A stretch of DNA of 42,691 nucleotides from Candidatus Saccharimonadota bacterium (GTDB lineage Bacteria; Patescibacteriota; Saccharimonadia; Saccharimonadales; Saccharimonadaceae), in the NCBI GenBank assembly GCA_027493025.1, contig JAPUDQ010000035.1, positions 1 through 42,691 of the forward strand, in the 5' to 3' direction. Positions 10,184 to 42,691 of the stretch are shown here, one piece after another; position 1 is the stretch's first letter; each line of letters begins with the position of its first letter. A model generated the notes under the pieces. The model was not told the origin of the DNA. It saw only the letters and a program-made list of their open reading frames with translations, and did no database searches. Both the position numbers and the translations under genes were made by a program.

Positions 10184-10858
10184 TCATTCGTGCGCGATAC
10201 GACCGATCTGCTGACATACCTTCAAAAAATCATCCACTCCTGTAATATGAGCAATGACCTGCGGGTTTTGCGCACTCGCTACCCGAAGAAACTTTATATG
10301 GTCACTCGTAAACTCGCCACGCTCGTCATATACAAATGCCATATCTTCAACATCAAACCGGTAGGTTGCATCCTCAACAAGCTTCATTCCATTGTGATCA
10401 GTAGCAAGGTTGATACCTACACCGAGGAGAATCGCCATTTGCATGCGATACCATAGCTCAGTCACCCCCAAGGGTATACGACCATTATCAAGGCTCTCAA
10501 GCAGAGTATGAGTCAGCACGTAAAAGGCTGGTTCGGTTAGTAACTCGGCTGCACGCGCGACATCTTTTAGAACAAAATAAGCAAATTGCAATCGATCATA
10601 ATCAGCTAAGATACTATTGTAAAATTTTTCCAATCTAGCAGATGTTACAATTGCTAGCTCGCCCTTTCCCTGATGAAGTGTCAAGGTACAAACAGCCAGC
10701 AACTCAATCCCTCCAGCTAGTTTACTCTTTTCGCGGCGAACAGCTTTGGCAATCACTCCTATTTTGCCATACTCCGGAGTGATAATTTGCATGATTCGAT
10801 CAGCCTCACCATAATTCACCCGGCTAAGGATAATTGCCTTTGTAACGAGACTACTCAT
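10184..10858 (-). CDS. recO: DNA repair protein RecO
   Basis: 224 aa. RecO binds single-stranded DNA and SSB and, with RecR/RecF, loads RecA. The N-terminal OB-fold signature is clear: AIILSRVNYGEADRIMQIIT, followed by GKIGVIAKAVRR and the GGIELLAVCTLTLHQGKGEL region; the rest is the helical domain. The zinc-finger cysteines present in some RecO proteins are absent. The ATG at 10858 is preferred over the in-frame GTG one codon earlier; either start overlaps the end of the response regulator gene, so RecO is translated from the same transcript as the upstream kinase-regulator pair. Confidence 0.92.
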   Translation of the reverse strand: MSSLVTKAIILSRVNYGEADRIMQIITPEYGKIGVIAKAVRREKSKLAGGIELLAVCTLTLHQGKGELAIVTSARLEKFYNSILADYDRLQFAYFVLKDVARAAELLTEPAFYVLTHTLLESLDNGRIPLGVTELWYRMQMAILLGVGINLATDHNGMKLVEDATYRFDVEDMAFVYDERGEFTSDHIKFLRVASAQNPQVIAHITGVDDFLKVCQQIGRIAHE

Positions 10859-11219
10859 CACGCAGATTACCTTCTACCGTTTCACGCAATAATTTTGGCG
10901 TGAGAGTGCTTTTATCCAGCACCGCCACAACCCCATAGGCCATTACATCTGCCAATCTAACATTCGCGGCAAGCGATGAACACAAAACGATCGGTATGGT
11001 TGCGGTATCATCATACGCCTGCAATTCATGGAGTAAATCAATCACAACTCCATATTCCAGCATGATATCAGCAATGATCAGATCATACTCATTGCTATCA
11101 ATCAAGTCTATCGCCTCCTGTCCGCTCATAGCAATGTCCGTATCATACTCATCTAACACATCGACATAACTATCGGCCAGCCAACGGTCGTCTTCAATAA
11201 GTAATATTCTCGGACTCAT
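10851..11219 (-). CDS. Single-domain response regulator (receiver only)
   Basis: 122 aa, only a CheY-like receiver domain with no output domain. The acidic pocket Glu9/Asp10/Asp11, phosphoacceptor Asp51 (LIIADIML) and Lys103 (LDKS) are in place; the conserved Ser/Thr is in LCSS (about residue 81). It overlaps the histidine kinase by 4 nt (ATGA) and recO by 8 nt, so it is almost certainly the kinase's partner. With no DNA-binding domain it probably works by protein contact, as Spo0F or DivK do. Confidence 0.92.
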   Translation of the reverse strand: MSPRILLIEDDRWLADSYVDVLDEYDTDIAMSGQEAIDLIDSNEYDLIIADIMLEYGVVIDLLHELQAYDDTATIPIVLCSSLAANVRLADVMAYGVVAVLDKSTLTPKLLRETVEGNLRDE

Positions 11220-11917
11220 ATCGCCAGTAATGAAAGTTGTTTTGAAGCGGGAAGCTCAAGCGCTAGTGTTACACCAGCGGTATGATGCCGTCTTAGCGTT
11301 AGCGTCGCATCCATATGTCGCGCAAATTGCTCAGCAATAAGCAAACCAAGCCCGCTACTTCGCGGACGCGACGCGATTGGTTGCGGTGTTCGACCAACCG
11401 ATCGTCGAATGGTTGTCAGACTTGAGGTCACGGGACCAAAATCACGGATACTACTCAAGACCCGATCCCCTCGCCGAGAGATGCGTAACTCGATAGGATA
11501 TTGCGGATTATTATGCGTCAAAGCATTATCGCATAGGCCCAATAAAACTGATCTCAGAAGAGAACGATTACCAACAACAACGACATGACGTTTTGAAGCT
11601 ACTGGTTGGATTTTTTGCCCTAAGGCGAGCGTTAAAGGTGTGAGTTCATGCACCACATCTTCATGCAGCTCAGAAAGATTTATCGGCTCACACTCGAATA
11701 ATGCATCTTCTAACCGAGCAACCCGAGTCAAACTCTCAACCAGCTGTAAACTACGTTCTGCCGTCATGCGTATGCGAGCGGCCTGTATACTTTCTTCACT
11801 CTTTTCCAGCTGAAGGGCCAGCTGTCGAATCAATACTAACGGTGATTTCAGCTCATGTGCCGCCGCAAGGACGGTTGGTATATCATTCCATAAAGCAGCG
11901 TTTCCCTCACTTTGCAT
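11216..11917 (-). CDS. Soluble histidine kinase without a sensor domain
   Basis: 233 aa from the ATG at 11917. The phospho-acceptor motif AHELKSPL (His21) starts almost at the N-terminus; the ATPase domain has CDNALTHN (N box), RDFGP (G1) and SSGLGLLIAEQF (G2). There are no membrane segments or PAS/GAF domain, so the input must come from a partner. A longer in-frame start at 11944 would lie inside a 14-bp hairpin, whereas the chosen ATG is 6 nt after a TACACT -10 box, giving a leaderless start. It ends in TGA overlapping the regulator's ATG. Confidence 0.88.
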   Translation of the reverse strand: MQSEGNAALWNDIPTVLAAAHELKSPLVLIRQLALQLEKSEESIQAARIRMTAERSLQLVESLTRVARLEDALFECEPINLSELHEDVVHELTPLTLALGQKIQPVASKRHVVVVGNRSLLRSVLLGLCDNALTHNNPQYPIELRISRRGDRVLSSIRDFGPVTSSLTTIRRSVGRTPQPIASRPRSSGLGLLIAEQFARHMDATLTLRRHHTAGVTLALELPASKQLSLLAI

Positions 11918-11923
11918 ACTCTT

Positions 11924-11929
11924 AGTGTA
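11924..11929 (-). promoter_or_regulatory. -10 box TACACT, leaderless-type promoter of the kinase operon
   Basis: TACACT on the minus strand ends 6 nt before the ATG at 11917. The adjacent hairpin (11929-11963) covers the stretch where a -35 region would lie, so the hairpin could also affect this promoter. Confidence 0.45.
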
Positions 11930-11963
11930 GCAAACACCATCCACGAAATGGATGGTGTTTGCT
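11929..11963 (-). terminator. Perfect 14-bp hairpin between two operons
   Basis: AGCAAACACCATCC (11929-11942) and GGATGGTGTTTGCT (11950-11963) are exact reverse complements with a 7-nt loop. It starts 20 nt after the stop of the anchored protein gene (11984) and is the strongest inverted repeat noticed in the window. There is no downstream T run, but the second arm in the transcribed strand is AT-rich at its end. Terminator function is the likeliest reading; it also abuts the kinase promoter. Confidence 0.6.
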
Positions 11964-17916: not shown

Positions 17917-18294
17917 TTACTGGGTTATTCCAAGATGATGCTTGATACGATCAACCACATCACTAATCACCACTTGAGACTTGACCAGATAATCATCCGC
18001 ACCAAGTTCTTCAGCGCGCTGTTTGTCCTTGGGCTGGGAAAGCGCCGTCAGCATAACCACATGAACATTGACAGTCTCTGGTGTGTTACGAAGGATATCA
18101 AGCACGTCAAAGCCGTTAATTTTCGGCATCATGGCGTCCAATACGATCAGATCAGGCTTGAACTCAATGACTTTGGAGAGAGCAAGCTCACCATTATCAA
18201 CATGCTCGACCACAAAGCCTTCCATTTCCAATCGCGCCCGATAAACTTGTGCCAGTGAATTGTCGTCTTCAACGAGGAGAATTTTTTTCTGCAT
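17917..18294 (-). CDS. Single-domain response regulator
   Basis: 125 aa, a stand-alone CheY-like receiver. The acidic pair in VEDDNSL, phosphoacceptor Asp53 (LIVLDAMMP), Thr in MLTA and Lys in YLVKSQ are all present, so it should be phosphorylated. There is no output domain and no adjacent kinase. It follows the Ctp protease gene by 42 nt, but a TATAGT lies 7 nt before its ATG, so it probably has its own leaderless transcript. The ATGs of this and the other minus-strand genes nearby suggest it may be co-ordinated with the division cluster, but this is inference. Confidence 0.93.
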   Translation of the reverse strand: MQKKILLVEDDNSLAQVYRARLEMEGFVVEHVDNGELALSKVIEFKPDLIVLDAMMPKINGFDVLDILRNTPETVNVHVVMLTALSQPKDKQRAEELGADDYLVKSQVVISDVVDRIKHHLGITQ

Positions 18295-37010: not shown

Positions 37011-39125
37011 ATGAAAAAATCGATGATGTGGCAAGAATTGTCTATAGGATTCACAGGAATCATTATTGCGCTTGTTATCGTGCCATTCGTAGCTGCTCAG
37101 ACAACAACGATACGCGTGACGGTCGGCGCGCCAACCCCACCTGATGTTTGTGCCAATATTGACGGTGTTCAAGCAGAGGTTCCTACTGGTATGGTGGTCG
37201 ATGGAAACGGAAACTGCACAACCCCTACGCCGCCGCCAGTTGATGTTTGTAAAAACATTGATGGGCTACAAACCACAATACCTTCTGGCTACTATCAAGA
37301 TAACTCAGGCAATTGCTTCGTTCAGCCCGCTCCCCCCGTTGATGTTTGCCCTAATCTCTTCGGACTACAGGTCGTTGTTCCTTCAAGTCTTATTATTGAC
37401 GCAAACGGTAACTGTGTCACCAAGCCGATTGATGAGTGTCCAAATATTGATGGCAATCAAGCCACTATTCCAGCTGGCATGGTTCGCGAAAATGGCCGTT
37501 GTTTTACGCCAACTGGCACTGTTTCACCACCTGACTATACTCCTCCGACCCCCGCACCAACCCCAACTAACCCTACACCTACACCGACAACACCTCCGTA
37601 CATCCCCGCTCCAACAAATCCTTCTACGTCAGGAGATGCCCCCGCTAAGACTTACTATTACACCCCGCCAGCAACAGCTGAACAACCACGACCTTTTCGT
37701 CAGATTATCGTAGAAGGACAAGATGGGTCCACATCATTCGGCCGAACAGATTACGAAAACGTCCCCGAACAACTTGACAGCGTCATTGACCCGCTTGTTA
37801 AAGCAATTCCGACTCCGGTGGTTACGGCGCTGCAATCTGTCTCCCCAACCGTTGCCCGAACCGTTCCTTATTATGTTTTTGGCGTGCTTGGACTCATGAT
37901 TACCATGATTGCCGTTCAGGCCGTCTTAGAGTTTCGCGCAGCACGAGAACTTATCGTTCTTCTAAAACGAGATAGGAACATTGCCGAGCAAAAAGATAAC
38001 TTCATTGCCCTAGCTTCCCATTATCTCCGTACACCTCTTACGTTAATGCGGAACGGGCTTGATACCATCGTTGCGCTGAAAGAACTACCTCCACAACACG
38101 TACAACGCCTCCGAAACACGGTCAGTACCCTTGATTTTAATATCAAAGATATACTAGCGGATGTCGAAAACAATGAAGCTCTTAAAGCCATCAAAGAACC
38201 CACAATTAAATCAGAAAAACCAAACATCTTTCGCTCTGGATTCTTCTGGACACCTCTTTTGTTCTCTGTTGTCATTACTGTAGCCGCAAACTTCCTCCTT
38301 GGTGTAGTTGGTAACGTCGACCTCGGCATTACGAACGTAACTATTCAGGTAATTATCTTTGCAGCCATCGCGACGATGTTATATACCGCCGTACGCAATA
38401 TTCACATTCGTCGTATTCAAAAAGCGCGCCAAGAAGAGTTGCTTGCCCATGAACGGGTTGTTGATGAAGCCCGCAACGCGTTCATTCAACGTTCCACCGC
38501 TGCGCTTCATAAGGGGCTTACTAGTCTTTACAATCATCGACCTGACATTAGCGGCGCTGCTTCGACGCGTTTCTTTGATGAGGGCTATAAGCGCTTCTTA
38601 GAAATTCTTGAGAAGTTTCTTCTACTTGGTACGATACAAACAGGTAGCACTCGTCAAACGGAACGCATAAACCTTCATGATTTCGTTGATGAAGTTACCA
38701 GCACCTACATACGACAGATTGATGAAAAACATCTCTCCGTTGTCAATAACATCCCTACGTCCATTTTTGTTGAGCAAAATCGTCCACTCTATACGTTCGT
38801 TATTCGGTCACTTATCGATAATGCCATCAAATTCAACAAAGATGGTGGCACCATCGACATCACTGCTGACCCATCACATCAAAGCCTGCGAGTCAGTGTA
38901 ACAGACACAGGTATTGGCATTCCCGAAGACAAAGTATCTCAGCTCTTCAAACCATTTTCACGGGCTGATTCGGCAATCGAGTTTAACTATGAAGGACTTG
39001 GCTTTAGTCTCTTCCTCGATAAAATCATCACTGATTACATGGGCGGCAATATAAAAGTGACGTCTCCTAACCAAGGTGGTACTTCAGTTAGTGTGACGTC
39101 ACCACATAGCTCTTTAGCTACTTAA
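37011..39125 (+). CDS. Membrane histidine kinase with cysteine repeats and a split dimerisation region
   Basis: 704 aa. Signal sequence or anchor (residues 10-29); four extracytoplasmic repeats of a DVCxNIDGxQ...GNC form with cysteine pairs 47/69, 80/102, 113/135 and 143/164; a Pro/Thr-rich linker (about 170-225); a membrane helix (286-307); an H-box helix FIALASHYLRTPLTLM with His337; then two more membrane helices (about 411-432 and 443-461); a second helix FIQRSTAALHKGLTSL (491-506); and an ATPase domain with IDNAIKFN (N604), DTGIGIPED and GLGFSLFLDKI. The start follows a TATAAT by about 30 nt and has only a weak AAGAGA. Separation of the phospho-His and ATPase by a membrane hairpin is unusual. 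It is divergent from the ABC exporter genes. Confidence 0.85.
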   Translation: MKKSMMWQELSIGFTGIIIALVIVPFVAAQTTTIRVTVGAPTPPDVCANIDGVQAEVPTGMVVDGNGNCTTPTPPPVDVCKNIDGLQTTIPSGYYQDNSGNCFVQPAPPVDVCPNLFGLQVVVPSSLIIDANGNCVTKPIDECPNIDGNQATIPAGMVRENGRCFTPTGTVSPPDYTPPTPAPTPTNPTPTPTTPPYIPAPTNPSTSGDAPAKTYYYTPPATAEQPRPFRQIIVEGQDGSTSFGRTDYENVPEQLDSVIDPLVKAIPTPVVTALQSVSPTVARTVPYYVFGVLGLMITMIAVQAVLEFRAARELIVLLKRDRNIAEQKDNFIALASHYLRTPLTLMRNGLDTIVALKELPPQHVQRLRNTVSTLDFNIKDILADVENNEALKAIKEPTIKSEKPNIFRSGFFWTPLLFSVVITVAANFLLGVVGNVDLGITNVTIQVIIFAAIATMLYTAVRNIHIRRIQKARQEELLAHERVVDEARNAFIQRSTAALHKGLTSLYNHRPDISGAASTRFFDEGYKRFLEILEKFLLLGTIQTGSTRQTERINLHDFVDEVTSTYIRQIDEKHLSVVNNIPTSIFVEQNRPLYTFVIRSLIDNAIKFNKDGGTIDITADPSHQSLRVSVTDTGIGIPEDKVSQLFKPFSRADSAIEFNYEGLGFSLFLDKIITDYMGGNIKVTSPNQGGTSVSVTSPHSSLAT

Positions 39126-40264
39126 TCGGCCAAGATTGTATAGGGTCGTTTACTAAACTGGTGTCGAATATGCATAGCCTGTAAGCCCATGCCTACACAA
39201 AGTGTAATGATGAAGACAAGTACATTAATACCAGGTATTAGCATCAACAGCCCTACTACCAAAGCGCCTACAAGAACAACGAGTAACGCATTTGTCGCTC
39301 GTTTTCGAAGAATCAATCCACCGATATAGTAAGCTGTAAACACACTAGACACACAGGCCATAATGAGCCATACAAGCATCCCAACCATACCAAGCGGTAT
39401 ACCAACAATGGTTGCCATTACTAAAATACTTGCAAATGGCAGTAGCAAAAGTGCAGCAAATCCCACGAGAAATGCCAGCATGACTGTTCGGACTGAAACC
39501 GATGAAGCTTCATGCAAATATTTTGGCACAAGCAGCGTCACACCGAGCGCGAGAACAATAAACGAAACAATCGTCCACAATGTCGCCTTAATCCATGAAC
39601 CATCAGCTGCTGTCTGATCCGTTCGCTCCGTAAAGTTTGTTTGACCCGCAACGACTCCTGCGGGCAGATTTTGTTGTTTTTCACTCTGATAGATAAAGTT
39701 GCCGCCTACCTTTGCTTCATTGCGAACTGAAAGACTACTGATACTAGCGTGCACATCCCTACCAACTGTTCCACCGAAATTCATTACCCCAGTTCCAAGC
39801 AACATGTCACGTTTGACCGTACCATCCAAATTTAGCGTAGAAGCCCCGCCGGTAATATCCCGCTGAACTATCGCTCCTTTATCAATCGTAACTGTATTCC
39901 CAGCCAAAGACGCACTGCCACCAACTTGCGCTTTGAGCGTCACAACATTGCCAGCTGCCCGAACATCACCATGTACGGTTCCACCTATAGTCAGATTAGT
40001 GCCCGCACAAAGAACATCGCCCTCAACCGTACCATTAACGACAATATCATTTCCGGCGCAAAAAAGATCGCCTTTGATCGTTCCGCCTACCACTACTCTC
40101 TCACCAGCCATGTAGGCCGTAGAATCAATAACTTGCGTAGCGTCAATCTTCACCTCACCTTTTTCGTTCGCAACAACATGTCCTAGAGCACCTACATGCG
40201 GTGCAACGAATCCTACTGCTGCCATTAAAACAGCTGCGATGACTAATTTGCTGTATTTTTTCAC
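39122..40264 (-). CDS. Bactofilin-like beta-solenoid protein with four membrane helices
   Basis: 380 aa from the GTG at 40264. A signal peptide (residues about 5-27) is followed by a right-handed beta-solenoid of the polymer-forming (bactofilin/DUF342) type, about residues 50-200, with repeats such as VVVGGTIKGDLFCAG and NLTIGGTVHGDVRAAG. Four hydrophobic helices follow (about 230-380). Unlike cytoplasmic bactofilins, the solenoid should face outside. The GTG is chosen because AAGGAG lies 6 nt upstream; the longer frame at 40297 has none. It is 1 nt after the stop of a 59-aa gene, and its stop overlaps the kinase stop by 4 nt on the other strand. Confidence 0.85.
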   Translation of the reverse strand: MKKYSKLVIAAVLMAAVGFVAPHVGALGHVVANEKGEVKIDATQVIDSTAYMAGERVVVGGTIKGDLFCAGNDIVVNGTVEGDVLCAGTNLTIGGTVHGDVRAAGNVVTLKAQVGGSASLAGNTVTIDKGAIVQRDITGGASTLNLDGTVKRDMLLGTGVMNFGGTVGRDVHASISSLSVRNEAKVGGNFIYQSEKQQNLPAGVVAGQTNFTERTDQTAADGSWIKATLWTIVSFIVLALGVTLLVPKYLHEASSVSVRTVMLAFLVGFAALLLLPFASILVMATIVGIPLGMVGMLVWLIMACVSSVFTAYYIGGLILRKRATNALLVVLVGALVVGLLMLIPGINVLVFIITLCVGMGLQAMHIRHQFSKRPYTILAD

Positions 40265-40265
40265 C

Positions 40266-40445
40266 TTACGCTCCTTCCGGGCGAACACCGATATCACTCA
40301 GCGCAAACCCATATTTTTCTAATGTATCGACGACTAACTCTTTGTCGCCGATTTTATATTCGTGTGCGAGTACATCAAGAAACTCGCCTTCTGACGTAAA
40401 CAACTCTCCACCAAACTCATAGGCTTGACCCATCGACGCCTCCAT
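40266..40445 (-). CDS. Small acidic protein of unknown function
   Basis: 59 aa, a continuous ATG-to-TAA frame: begins MEASMGQAYEFGGELF and ends DIGVRPEGA. It is soluble and acidic with an alpha-beta look; no family is recognised. It lies 1 nt upstream of the bactofilin-like GTG, whose AAGGAG ribosome binding site is within its last codons, a layout typical of coupled genes. A TATACT (40460-40465) is 14 nt before its ATG. The region is otherwise empty, so this is the likely first gene of the bactofilin-like transcript. Confidence 0.65.
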   Translation of the reverse strand: MEASMGQAYEFGGELFTSEGEFLDVLAHEYKIGDKELVVDTLEKYGFALSDIGVRPEGA

Positions 40446-40799: not shown

Positions 40800-42584
40800 T
40801 TACGCACCACCGCCTCCACCACCGCCTCCACCGCCACCCGAAGAACCTCCTCCTCCCGAACCGCCAGAACTGGAGCTTGACGACGATGCATAGCTCGCCG
40901 CTTGGGATAGTCCGCTCATACCGCTGCTAAAAGCGACCGCATTAAAGGCTGTCGTACCACTATACCAATCTGGCTGCATACCTGATTTGTCATAGTAATC
41001 ACCAAGCTGCTTGCTCCATTCTTTCTCTTGTCCAAACAGTACCGCGTACGGCAAAACACGCTCATACAGCTTCACCAGTTTACTCGACTCCTGGATATCG
41101 CTTCCCTTTACGACAGAGGCGACCTTCTCAGCCCCCTCCGGGCTTTGTAGCATCTTGATACGCTCCTCCTCGGCAACTTTGATATACATCGAAAGTCCCT
41201 CAAGATACCGCCGCAGATCAAGTCCTTTATCAGTGAGACGCCAGGTATCAAACGACATCACAAACACCACGATAGTGATGATAAGCATAATTGGTGACAT
41301 ACCGAGCATCGTAAGCACCAGTAACACACCAGAAACTAATCTCAACCATTTCTTAAGCTTGAGGTCTTCCTCGCGCAGCGCATACTCACCTCGTACCAGT
41401 TTCTTTATGTGTTTGTCGTCATCCCTCGTGCGTTTAAGATACCCCATATTGTTTTGGAGCGATTTCAGCTTAAGCCGTTGACCAACCCGAGGCAGCGATC
41501 CATCGAACATGTCACTAAGAAATTCTTTTTCCTCTGACGACAAGGTCGTAAGGTCTTGGGTGATCTCTATATCATACTCACCAGATATATACCATTTTTT
41601 ACCTCTTGTCTCATAGATTTTGAGGTAATGCTTGACTGCCAGATCAATCAGTTGAGCTGTCATGATCGAGCCTTTTACGGTATAAGGTTTGGCGAGTGAT
41701 GCCGCCGTGATAACGCTTTGTTTCGGTGGCAAATACTCCGGCACAATCGTGCCAAGCTCTTTACTCCTATTGACGATGCGATAATAGCGCATACCTATCC
41801 AAGTCATCATAGCAGCACCGACCGCAAATAGCACGCCTTGCGCAATCCCCCACCACATGAACAATTTTTCGCTGAGCGTCATCACATACGGAGAAAATGT
41901 ACCTGACTGAAACCCTATAGCAACCGTAACATTTTCCCCTGGTTTTAGGTACTGTGCCTGCGTAGAAAACATTGCCTTGTCTTGCTGTAGTTCACATCGC
42001 CCAGTCGAGCCCTTCTCCCCCTGATAACACGCCGTCTGACCGGTCAGCTTTGTCGCGAGCACCTCATCGAGCATAACCTTTACTGATAGCTTTTCGATAG
42101 GCACTTTCCATTCCGTACCATTGGTATCCCAATAAAATTCATCCGCATTCGTATTTTGATAAAACCGCGTTACGTCATGCTGTATGTAGGTCAGTTTATA
42201 TGTTTGTGCGCCGTACACAAATTTGTCCATGTCAGCCATACGCACAATCAAATTATCGTTGCCATCCGTACTCGTGTCATATTTGCGTGACACGCCGTTT
42301 GCATCAGTCACCGACTGTACGTCTACACTTGTTTTATGACCATCATAACTCTTGGGAATTGCCCGTACGAGCCCATGATTTTGATCATAGTTCGGGAATT
42401 GTGCAGTGATAGTCTCCGTCGTCGTGAGCGTTGAACGACTTTCACCATCTCGCCCCAACGTCATTTCTATCTGATAGTCACTAATTGTAAAATCATTAAT
42501 ATTCGCCGCAAAGACTGGCTGTCCGTTGCCTATACCTACCACTACCCCAATAGCACTGATCCATGCAATTACAAACTTTTTCAT
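40800..42584 (-). CDS. DUF2207 membrane protein with Gly-rich tail
   Basis: 594 aa from the ATG at 42584. A signal sequence (about residues 1-27, ending VFAANINDF) precedes an extracytoplasmic beta domain (about 30-230) of DUF2207 type with INDFTISDYQIEMTLGRDGE; a membrane helix near residue 238-262; a cytoplasmic segment; two or more helices near 405-445; and a final domain. The C-terminus is a Ser- then Gly-rich run typical of this family (from SSSSSSGGSGGGG). Function is unknown. TATACT lies 6 nt before the chosen ATG; a longer start at 42602 would lie inside the promoter. Confidence 0.9.
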   Translation of the reverse strand: MKKFVIAWISAIGVVVGIGNGQPVFAANINDFTISDYQIEMTLGRDGESRSTLTTTETITAQFPNYDQNHGLVRAIPKSYDGHKTSVDVQSVTDANGVSRKYDTSTDGNDNLIVRMADMDKFVYGAQTYKLTYIQHDVTRFYQNTNADEFYWDTNGTEWKVPIEKLSVKVMLDEVLATKLTGQTACYQGEKGSTGRCELQQDKAMFSTQAQYLKPGENVTVAIGFQSGTFSPYVMTLSEKLFMWWGIAQGVLFAVGAAMMTWIGMRYYRIVNRSKELGTIVPEYLPPKQSVITAASLAKPYTVKGSIMTAQLIDLAVKHYLKIYETRGKKWYISGEYDIEITQDLTTLSSEEKEFLSDMFDGSLPRVGQRLKLKSLQNNMGYLKRTRDDDKHIKKLVRGEYALREEDLKLKKWLRLVSGVLLVLTMLGMSPIMLIITIVVFVMSFDTWRLTDKGLDLRRYLEGLSMYIKVAEEERIKMLQSPEGAEKVASVVKGSDIQESSKLVKLYERVLPYAVLFGQEKEWSKQLGDYYDKSGMQPDWYSGTTAFNAVAFSSGMSGLSQAASYASSSSSSSGGSGGGGSSGGGGGGGGGGGA

Positions 42585-42590
42585 ACCTTT

Positions 42591-42596
42591 AGTATA
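42591..42596 (-). promoter_or_regulatory. -10 box TATACT, leaderless-type promoter of the DUF2207 gene
   Basis: TATACT on the minus strand ends 6 nt before the ATG at 42584. The remaining bases to the window end show no gene. Confidence 0.5.
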
Positions 42597-42691
42597 CGAC
42601 AAACAAATAACTCATTGCGAACGACTTGGGAGATGAAGGGTTATCTTAACCTCTTGGTACAAGAATTAATGTTTTTTCACAATATAACTGA

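Follow-up and report, generated by a model that had tools for sequence, protein, structure and literature searches.

The window, as we call the whole stretch of 42,691 nucleotides that was analyzed, carries at positions 37011-39125 (+) a single open frame with an ATG at 37011 and a stop at 39125, encoding a protein of 704 amino acids. As listed in Table 1, a signal peptide, cysteine-bearing repeats, a membrane helix (TM2), a DHp hairpin with the H-box (DHp1), a hairpin of two further membrane helices (TM3 and TM4), a second DHp hairpin (DHp2) and an ATPase (CA) domain follow one another in this order. The ectodomain repeats contain two Cys each and also occur in three relatives (L006, L007 and L008). 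Downstream, the convergent gene at 39122-40297 (-), whose end runs 4 bases into that of the kinase gene, stop codon included, encodes a protein with hydrophobic stretches and a weak, below cut-off bactofilin-like match, and a DUF2207 membrane protein with a Ser/Gly-rich C-terminal tail is encoded at 40800-42602 (-).

Table 1. Features of the kinase gene; positions are those of the window, residue numbers (aa) those of the 704-aa protein.
Feature	Position	Strand	Basis
Signal peptide, aa 1-30, hydrophobic (about residues 11-29), then FVAAQ	37011..37100	+	sequence
Extracellular part, four repeats DVCxNIDGxQxxxPxGxxxDxxGNC, about aa 45-165	37143..37505	+	sequence, relatives
Pro/Thr-rich stalk, aa 166-225	37506..37685	+	sequence
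TM2, aa 285-311, continuous with DHp1 helix a1	37863..37943	+	hydropathy of 40 members; AlphaFold2 helix 279-355
DHp1 H-box hairpin, aa 322-386	37974..38168	+	Pfam HisKA; profile match; AlphaFold2 helices 279-355, 361-386
His337 codon, predicted phosphoacceptor	38019..38021	+	family conservation
TM3, aa 410-432	38238..38306	+	hydropathy peak in 40/40; AlphaFold2
TM4, aa 440-465, continuous with DHp2 helix a1'	38328..38405	+	hydropathy; AlphaFold2
DHp2, second DHp hairpin without His, aa 466-544	38406..38642	+	profile-profile; AlphaFold2 helices 440-513, 519-544
Ala497 codon, position matching His337	38499..38501	+	profile alignment, family conservation
ATPase (CA) domain, aa 555-700	38673..39110	+	Pfam HATPase_c; box statistics

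The catalytic parts of a HisKA/HATPase_c kinase are present. Pfam HATPase_c matches residues 596-699 (E 1.6e-21), and the N, G1, F and G2 boxes are found, with N604, D632, G634, G636, G662 and G664 all in place; among the relatives N604 is kept in 38 of 39 and D632 in 34 of 37, and the ATP-binding boxes are retained in most members. Pfam HisKA matches residues 327-382 with E 4e-5, slightly below the 26.9-bit cut-off in the single protein and above it in the genome search. Furthermore, a profile of DHp1 matched ordinary kinases with 98.9% probability over 62 columns, and its His is kept in 39 of the 40 aligned members. The usual layout, in which the His-bearing DHp is directly followed by the CA domain, is not found here, as TM3, TM4 and DHp2 lie between. 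In line with this, the HMMER matches to known kinases fall into two stretches, of which the first surrounds the H-box and the second begins at about residue 525, the pattern expected of a core with an insertion.

The first-pass annotation had suggested looking for the same layout in other genomes of the phylum. Searches with the protein as query, and then with an alignment (A2) of the region without the ATPase domain, led to an alignment (A3) of 40 non-redundant modules, drawn from Saccharimonadia and a further class of the phylum, whose proteins are 18-46% identical to the 704-aa protein and conserve its layout. The layout recurs in 9 of the 101 relatives and, at E<=1e-20, in 27 genomes out of 393 in the order; it was detected in 7/7 genomes searched from one family and in 3/16 from another class of the same phylum. 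Within the taxonomic family to which the window itself belongs it is sparse (12/394 genomes). A contig scan of genomes gave no match with the single protein as query; with the alignment it returned 10 loci, all from Saccharibacteria except for one weak WWE3 match. Named records that contain the module are Candidatus Saccharibacteria MAGs. The open-access literature, to which our search was confined (subscription papers lay outside it), holds no description of a natural tandem DHp or of this kinase family. We conclude that the split-kinase layout is genuine and conserved and, to judge from open publications, undescribed.

Members close to the 704-aa protein have open frames 635-744 aa long. Those of other lineages are longer, about 1,100-3,500 aa, with the module at their C-terminus, and many of the 40 aligned proteins are surface proteins of 1,100-6,800 aa that end in it. 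The ectodomains of these giant members comprise NHL propellers and fn3, RCC1, TIG, GLUG and Ig-like domains, and some genomes hold three to five copies of the module. Genes for module-bearing surface proteins were observed in clusters on G113:C12 (194-227 kb, a 33-kb stretch), on G144:C81 and on G435:C14 (two side by side). One open frame of 6,781 aa (G056:C2; L013, L079) ends in a module with degenerate CA motifs, and one module copy (G123:C11:11803-12579; L073, L101) is broken by a single TAG stop.

Kyte-Doolittle hydropathy of the 40 members places TM2 at about residues 285-301, TM3 at about 414-431 and TM4 at about 445-457. A peak of >=1.6 was found in 38/40 members for TM2, in 40/40 for TM3 and in 38/40 for TM4, and between residues 470 and 695 no peak of this height occurs in the 40 members. 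Together with Pfam, these data confirm that His337 lies between TM2 and TM3 and the ATPase domain beyond TM4, as the first-pass annotation had described; residues 411-461, which it had read as membrane helices, are upheld as such by hydropathy and AlphaFold2. It had counted four membrane helices in total, of which TM2, TM3 and TM4 stand and the supposed first one is the hydrophobic part of the signal peptide. TM3 and TM4 are joined by a short loop of fixed length, with 31 residues from centre to centre in 39 of 40 members, and the linker from DHp1 to TM3 varies in length. The distance from the TM2 centre to the His amounts to 47 residues in all 40 members, and that from the TM4 centre to the DHp2 residue matching A497 to 45 residues in 39 of 40. 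The sole exception to the latter, L039 (46 residues), is also the member without the His, carrying Asn instead.

The claim that DHp2 is related to the H-box region had been based on a gap-free alignment of FIALASHYLRTPLTLM (residues 331-346, with H337) to FIQRSTAALHKGLTSL (residues 491-506); both sequences are located in the protein as claimed. For a profile-profile comparison, residues 464-556 of the 40 members were matched to the DHp part of 11 ordinary kinases. The match (score 41.5, 95% probability) extends over 74 columns and covers both helices; its register is free of gaps and places A497 under the kinase His (H337), thereby recovering the proposed pairing. For comparison, column shuffles scored at most 15.7 and heptad-preserving shuffles, in which the amphipathic pattern is retained, at most 17.7, so that 0/150 of each reached 41.5, and the reversed profile scored 9.5. 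Each DHp2 helix taken singly also outscored all of its own shuffles. The direct profile match of DHp1 to DHp2 is weak (22% probability, score 19.6, shuffles at most 17.0), and the case for homology is made by the match of both hairpins to ordinary DHps. Since the profile of each matches the DHps of ordinary kinases, DHp1 and DHp2, as judged from sequence, are both whole DHp domains. Consequently, the proposal of a duplicated dimerisation helix holds for the presence of a His-less DHp copy, and not for its extent, as both the profiles and AlphaFold2 find the whole two-helix hairpin twice. The conservation of the two copies is complementary: in none of the 40 members is the DHp2 residue that matches the His itself a His, the column being occupied by E, A, K, S, T, N and others. 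The start of DHp2 helix a2' carries a nearly invariant Gly (90% or more), which is as conserved as catalytic residues.

AlphaFold2, run on one chain with the 40-sequence alignment, yielded a model with mean pLDDT 85.4 and pTM 0.72, in which the helices listed in Table 1 are followed by the CA fold. Both DHp hairpins are predicted, with block pLDDT values mostly of 86-96, in agreement with the earlier reading of residues 465-545 as a DHp-like hairpin. The membrane and DHp part modeled without CA gave the same helices (pLDDT 85.4, pTM 0.72). For a multi-helix chain, a predicted pTM of 0.72 would be compatible with a defined arrangement of DHp1 and DHp2, and is not proof of it. A Foldseek search aligned the model with solved kinases (YycG/WalK, HK853, GacS and others) over about 215-280 columns, a length that fits DHp2 plus CA; the four-helix part alone gave no match at E<0.001, a common outcome with long helices. 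We also computed covariation from one arm to the other (APC-corrected mutual information, 40-45 sequences), which was rejected as evidence, because its positive controls failed. The diagonal score peaked at offset 159, with 160 expected for H337/A497 (bootstrap 85-97%); however, certain within-hairpin contacts were missed, a1/a1' alone peaks at 147, and the peak stems from the TM2-TM4 block, all TM-TM blocks scoring high.

The best sequence and fold matches of the 704-aa protein are WalK-type kinases and HK853. With these and with PnpS, all of them HisKA transmembrane kinases, it shares the H-box, the DHp hairpin and the N, G1, F and G2 boxes of HATPase_c. In WalK/YycG, PnpS and HK853, however, each chain has a single DHp-CA unit in which CA adjoins the His, whereas in the 704-aa protein a membrane hairpin and a His-less DHp are placed between them and a HAMP or PAS linker is absent. 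Hpt domains form a four-helix bundle with one active His from one chain, and have neither ATPase domain nor membrane helices. A comparable arrangement of domains is man-made: EnvZ[AAB], as cited in PMC8971529 from its reference 38 (Mol Microbiol 2000, 36:24-32), was engineered from the cytoplasmic part of EnvZ as a single chain with two DHp units and one CA. It is active, and a variant of it gave an output above that of wild-type EnvZ. The 704-aa protein likewise has two DHp hairpins and one CA per chain; in contrast to EnvZ[AAB], in which the same DHp is used twice, it is natural and membrane-anchored, and its second DHp lacks the His. A histidine kinase working as a monomer is known with EL346 of the HWE family (PMC10359499), a soluble LOV-HWE protein that is monomeric since its sensor covers the dimer face, and not via a second DHp.

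One His, one ATPase domain and two DHp hairpins at matched depth are most simply arranged as a pseudo-dimer. We estimate at roughly one half the probability that this membrane receptor histidine kinase is a natural pseudo-dimer formed by a single chain with two unequal kinase halves. Arm 1 (ectodomain, TM2 and DHp1) would offer His337 as phosphoacceptor, and arm 2 (TM3, TM4, DHp2 and CA), having lost its His, would contribute the sole ATPase domain. DHp1 and DHp2, each of which continues its membrane helix without a break and at nearly equal depth, would come together in a four-helix bundle resembling an ordinary kinase homodimer, and the CA domain of arm 2 would phosphorylate His337 of arm 1 within the same chain. 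A force or ligand acting on the ectodomain would shift TM2 against TM4 and thereby toggle the bundle from a kinase to a phosphatase state or back; a free-standing receiver protein would accept the phosphoryl group. EnvZ[AAB] is an engineered precedent in favour of this reading, while Tyr at H+1 in 34 of 40 members and the lack of an adjoining gene for a cognate response regulator speak against it. The wider proposal, that with His and ATPase on separate anchored arms the long surface proteins of parasitic Patescibacteria may report host contact as monomers, arm against arm, is put forward more tentatively.

Ordinary receptor kinases are symmetric dimers, and the roles of each kinase half are hard to tell for this reason. 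The present chain, with one half without His and the other without ATPase, seems to be evolution's own complementation experiment; if this is true, the direction of phosphorylation and the asymmetry in transmembrane signalling become directly testable. Furthermore, the module is found in tiny parasitic bacteria, Saccharibacteria and relatives, where it lies at the cytoplasmic end of many giant surface proteins; little has been learned of the machinery by which these episymbionts sense their hosts.

Four other readings were considered. Well-studied transmembrane histidine kinases are homodimers, and in an ordinary homodimer of the 704-aa protein DHp1 would pair with DHp1 and DHp2 with DHp2 across two chains, CA reaching across to the bundle with the His. 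Such contacts between chains are compatible with all data, the AlphaFold2 run having comprised one chain. The DHp2 bundle would, however, carry CA without a substrate His in any member, and the matched arm spacing of 47 and 45 residues suggests that the arms pack with each other; we regard this arrangement as unlikely.

With a slightly lower ranking, the module might act mainly as a phosphatase or phosphotransfer brake on a response regulator and not as an autokinase, which we consider doubtful. The residue following the His (H+1, Tyr338 in the 704-aa protein) is Tyr in 34 of 40 members, H, N or F in the rest and never acidic, and 37 of 40 retain the Thr at H+4. Work on CrdS and three further HisKA kinases showed that the acid at H+1 is needed for kinase activity (autophosphorylation) only and Thr/Asn at H+4 for phosphatase activity only (PMC3510030). 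Tyr at H+1 in combination with the kept Thr thus raises, and does not establish, a possible phosphatase-type role of the module, and because Tyr replaces the acidic residue in most members its autokinase activity is only putative. On the other hand, the acid at H+1 is not universal, since the ordinary kinases used for comparison sometimes carry Q, H or N there, and the retained ATP-binding boxes also speak against a mere brake.

A pseudokinase scaffold, whose DHp and CA parts only relay conformation, is a very improbable reading. A few members would fit it, as the His is lost in L039 (Asn), L107 (Ser) and L088 (Asp) and the CA motifs are lost in L013 and L008; by their sequences these five are likely pseudokinases of the same layout. 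In nearly all others, the 704-aa protein included, the His and the ATP boxes are conserved. An artefact, with residues 411-461 lying outside the membrane or two genes misassembled into one, is scarcely conceivable. We found nothing in its favour, and it is already contradicted by the recurrence of the layout in 40 proteins whose assemblies are independent, the strong TM3 hydropathy in 40/40 and the single open frame.

With respect to the origin of the pseudo-dimer layout, the repeated unit probably includes a membrane helix, as a continuous TM-a1-a2 element occurs twice with matched spacing: TM2-a1-a2 would be followed by TM4-a1'-a2', with TM3 as the connector. The first-pass annotation had suggested two membrane helices inserted into the catalytic core; TM3 and TM4 do part the two DHps, but since the repeat probably takes in the membrane helix, an inserted membrane hairpin is a less apt wording than a tandem fusion of two half-kinases, each lacking what the other keeps. 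Either tandem duplication or the joining of a truncated kinase to a standard kinase with two TMs could have given rise to such a protein; one half would then have lost the CA domain and the other the His. Among the relatives no intermediate form was found that would put duplication, insertion and His loss in order.

No cognate response regulator gene adjoins the kinase gene, and the relatives are mostly orphans, too. At the thresholds used, the genome contains five HisKA-type matches and five receiver-domain proteins; two receivers lie within the window, at 19 and 26 kb from the kinase gene. Two of the five receivers adjoin HisKA kinases and a third (window 10851-11219) adjoins a small kinase-like gene, which leaves those at window 17917-18294 (-) and C12:9064-9402 (-) free. 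The former, a CheY-like receiver (E 1e-24) that stands alone, with no kinase gene adjoining it, is by elimination a candidate for the partner of the kinase. A receiver gene is located 13-19 kb upstream in the same orientation in three genera (those of the window, G027 and G048); as partner evidence this synteny was given no weight. At window 10851-11944 (-), the kinase-like gene (242 aa) overlaps the stand-alone receiver gene (122 aa) by 4 bases, and its product has an H-box-like AAAHELKSPL and a weak HATPase_c match, HisKA being undetected by Pfam. In another genome, the gene of L107 (G138:C12) adjoins a divergent gene for a receiver protein of 240 aa.
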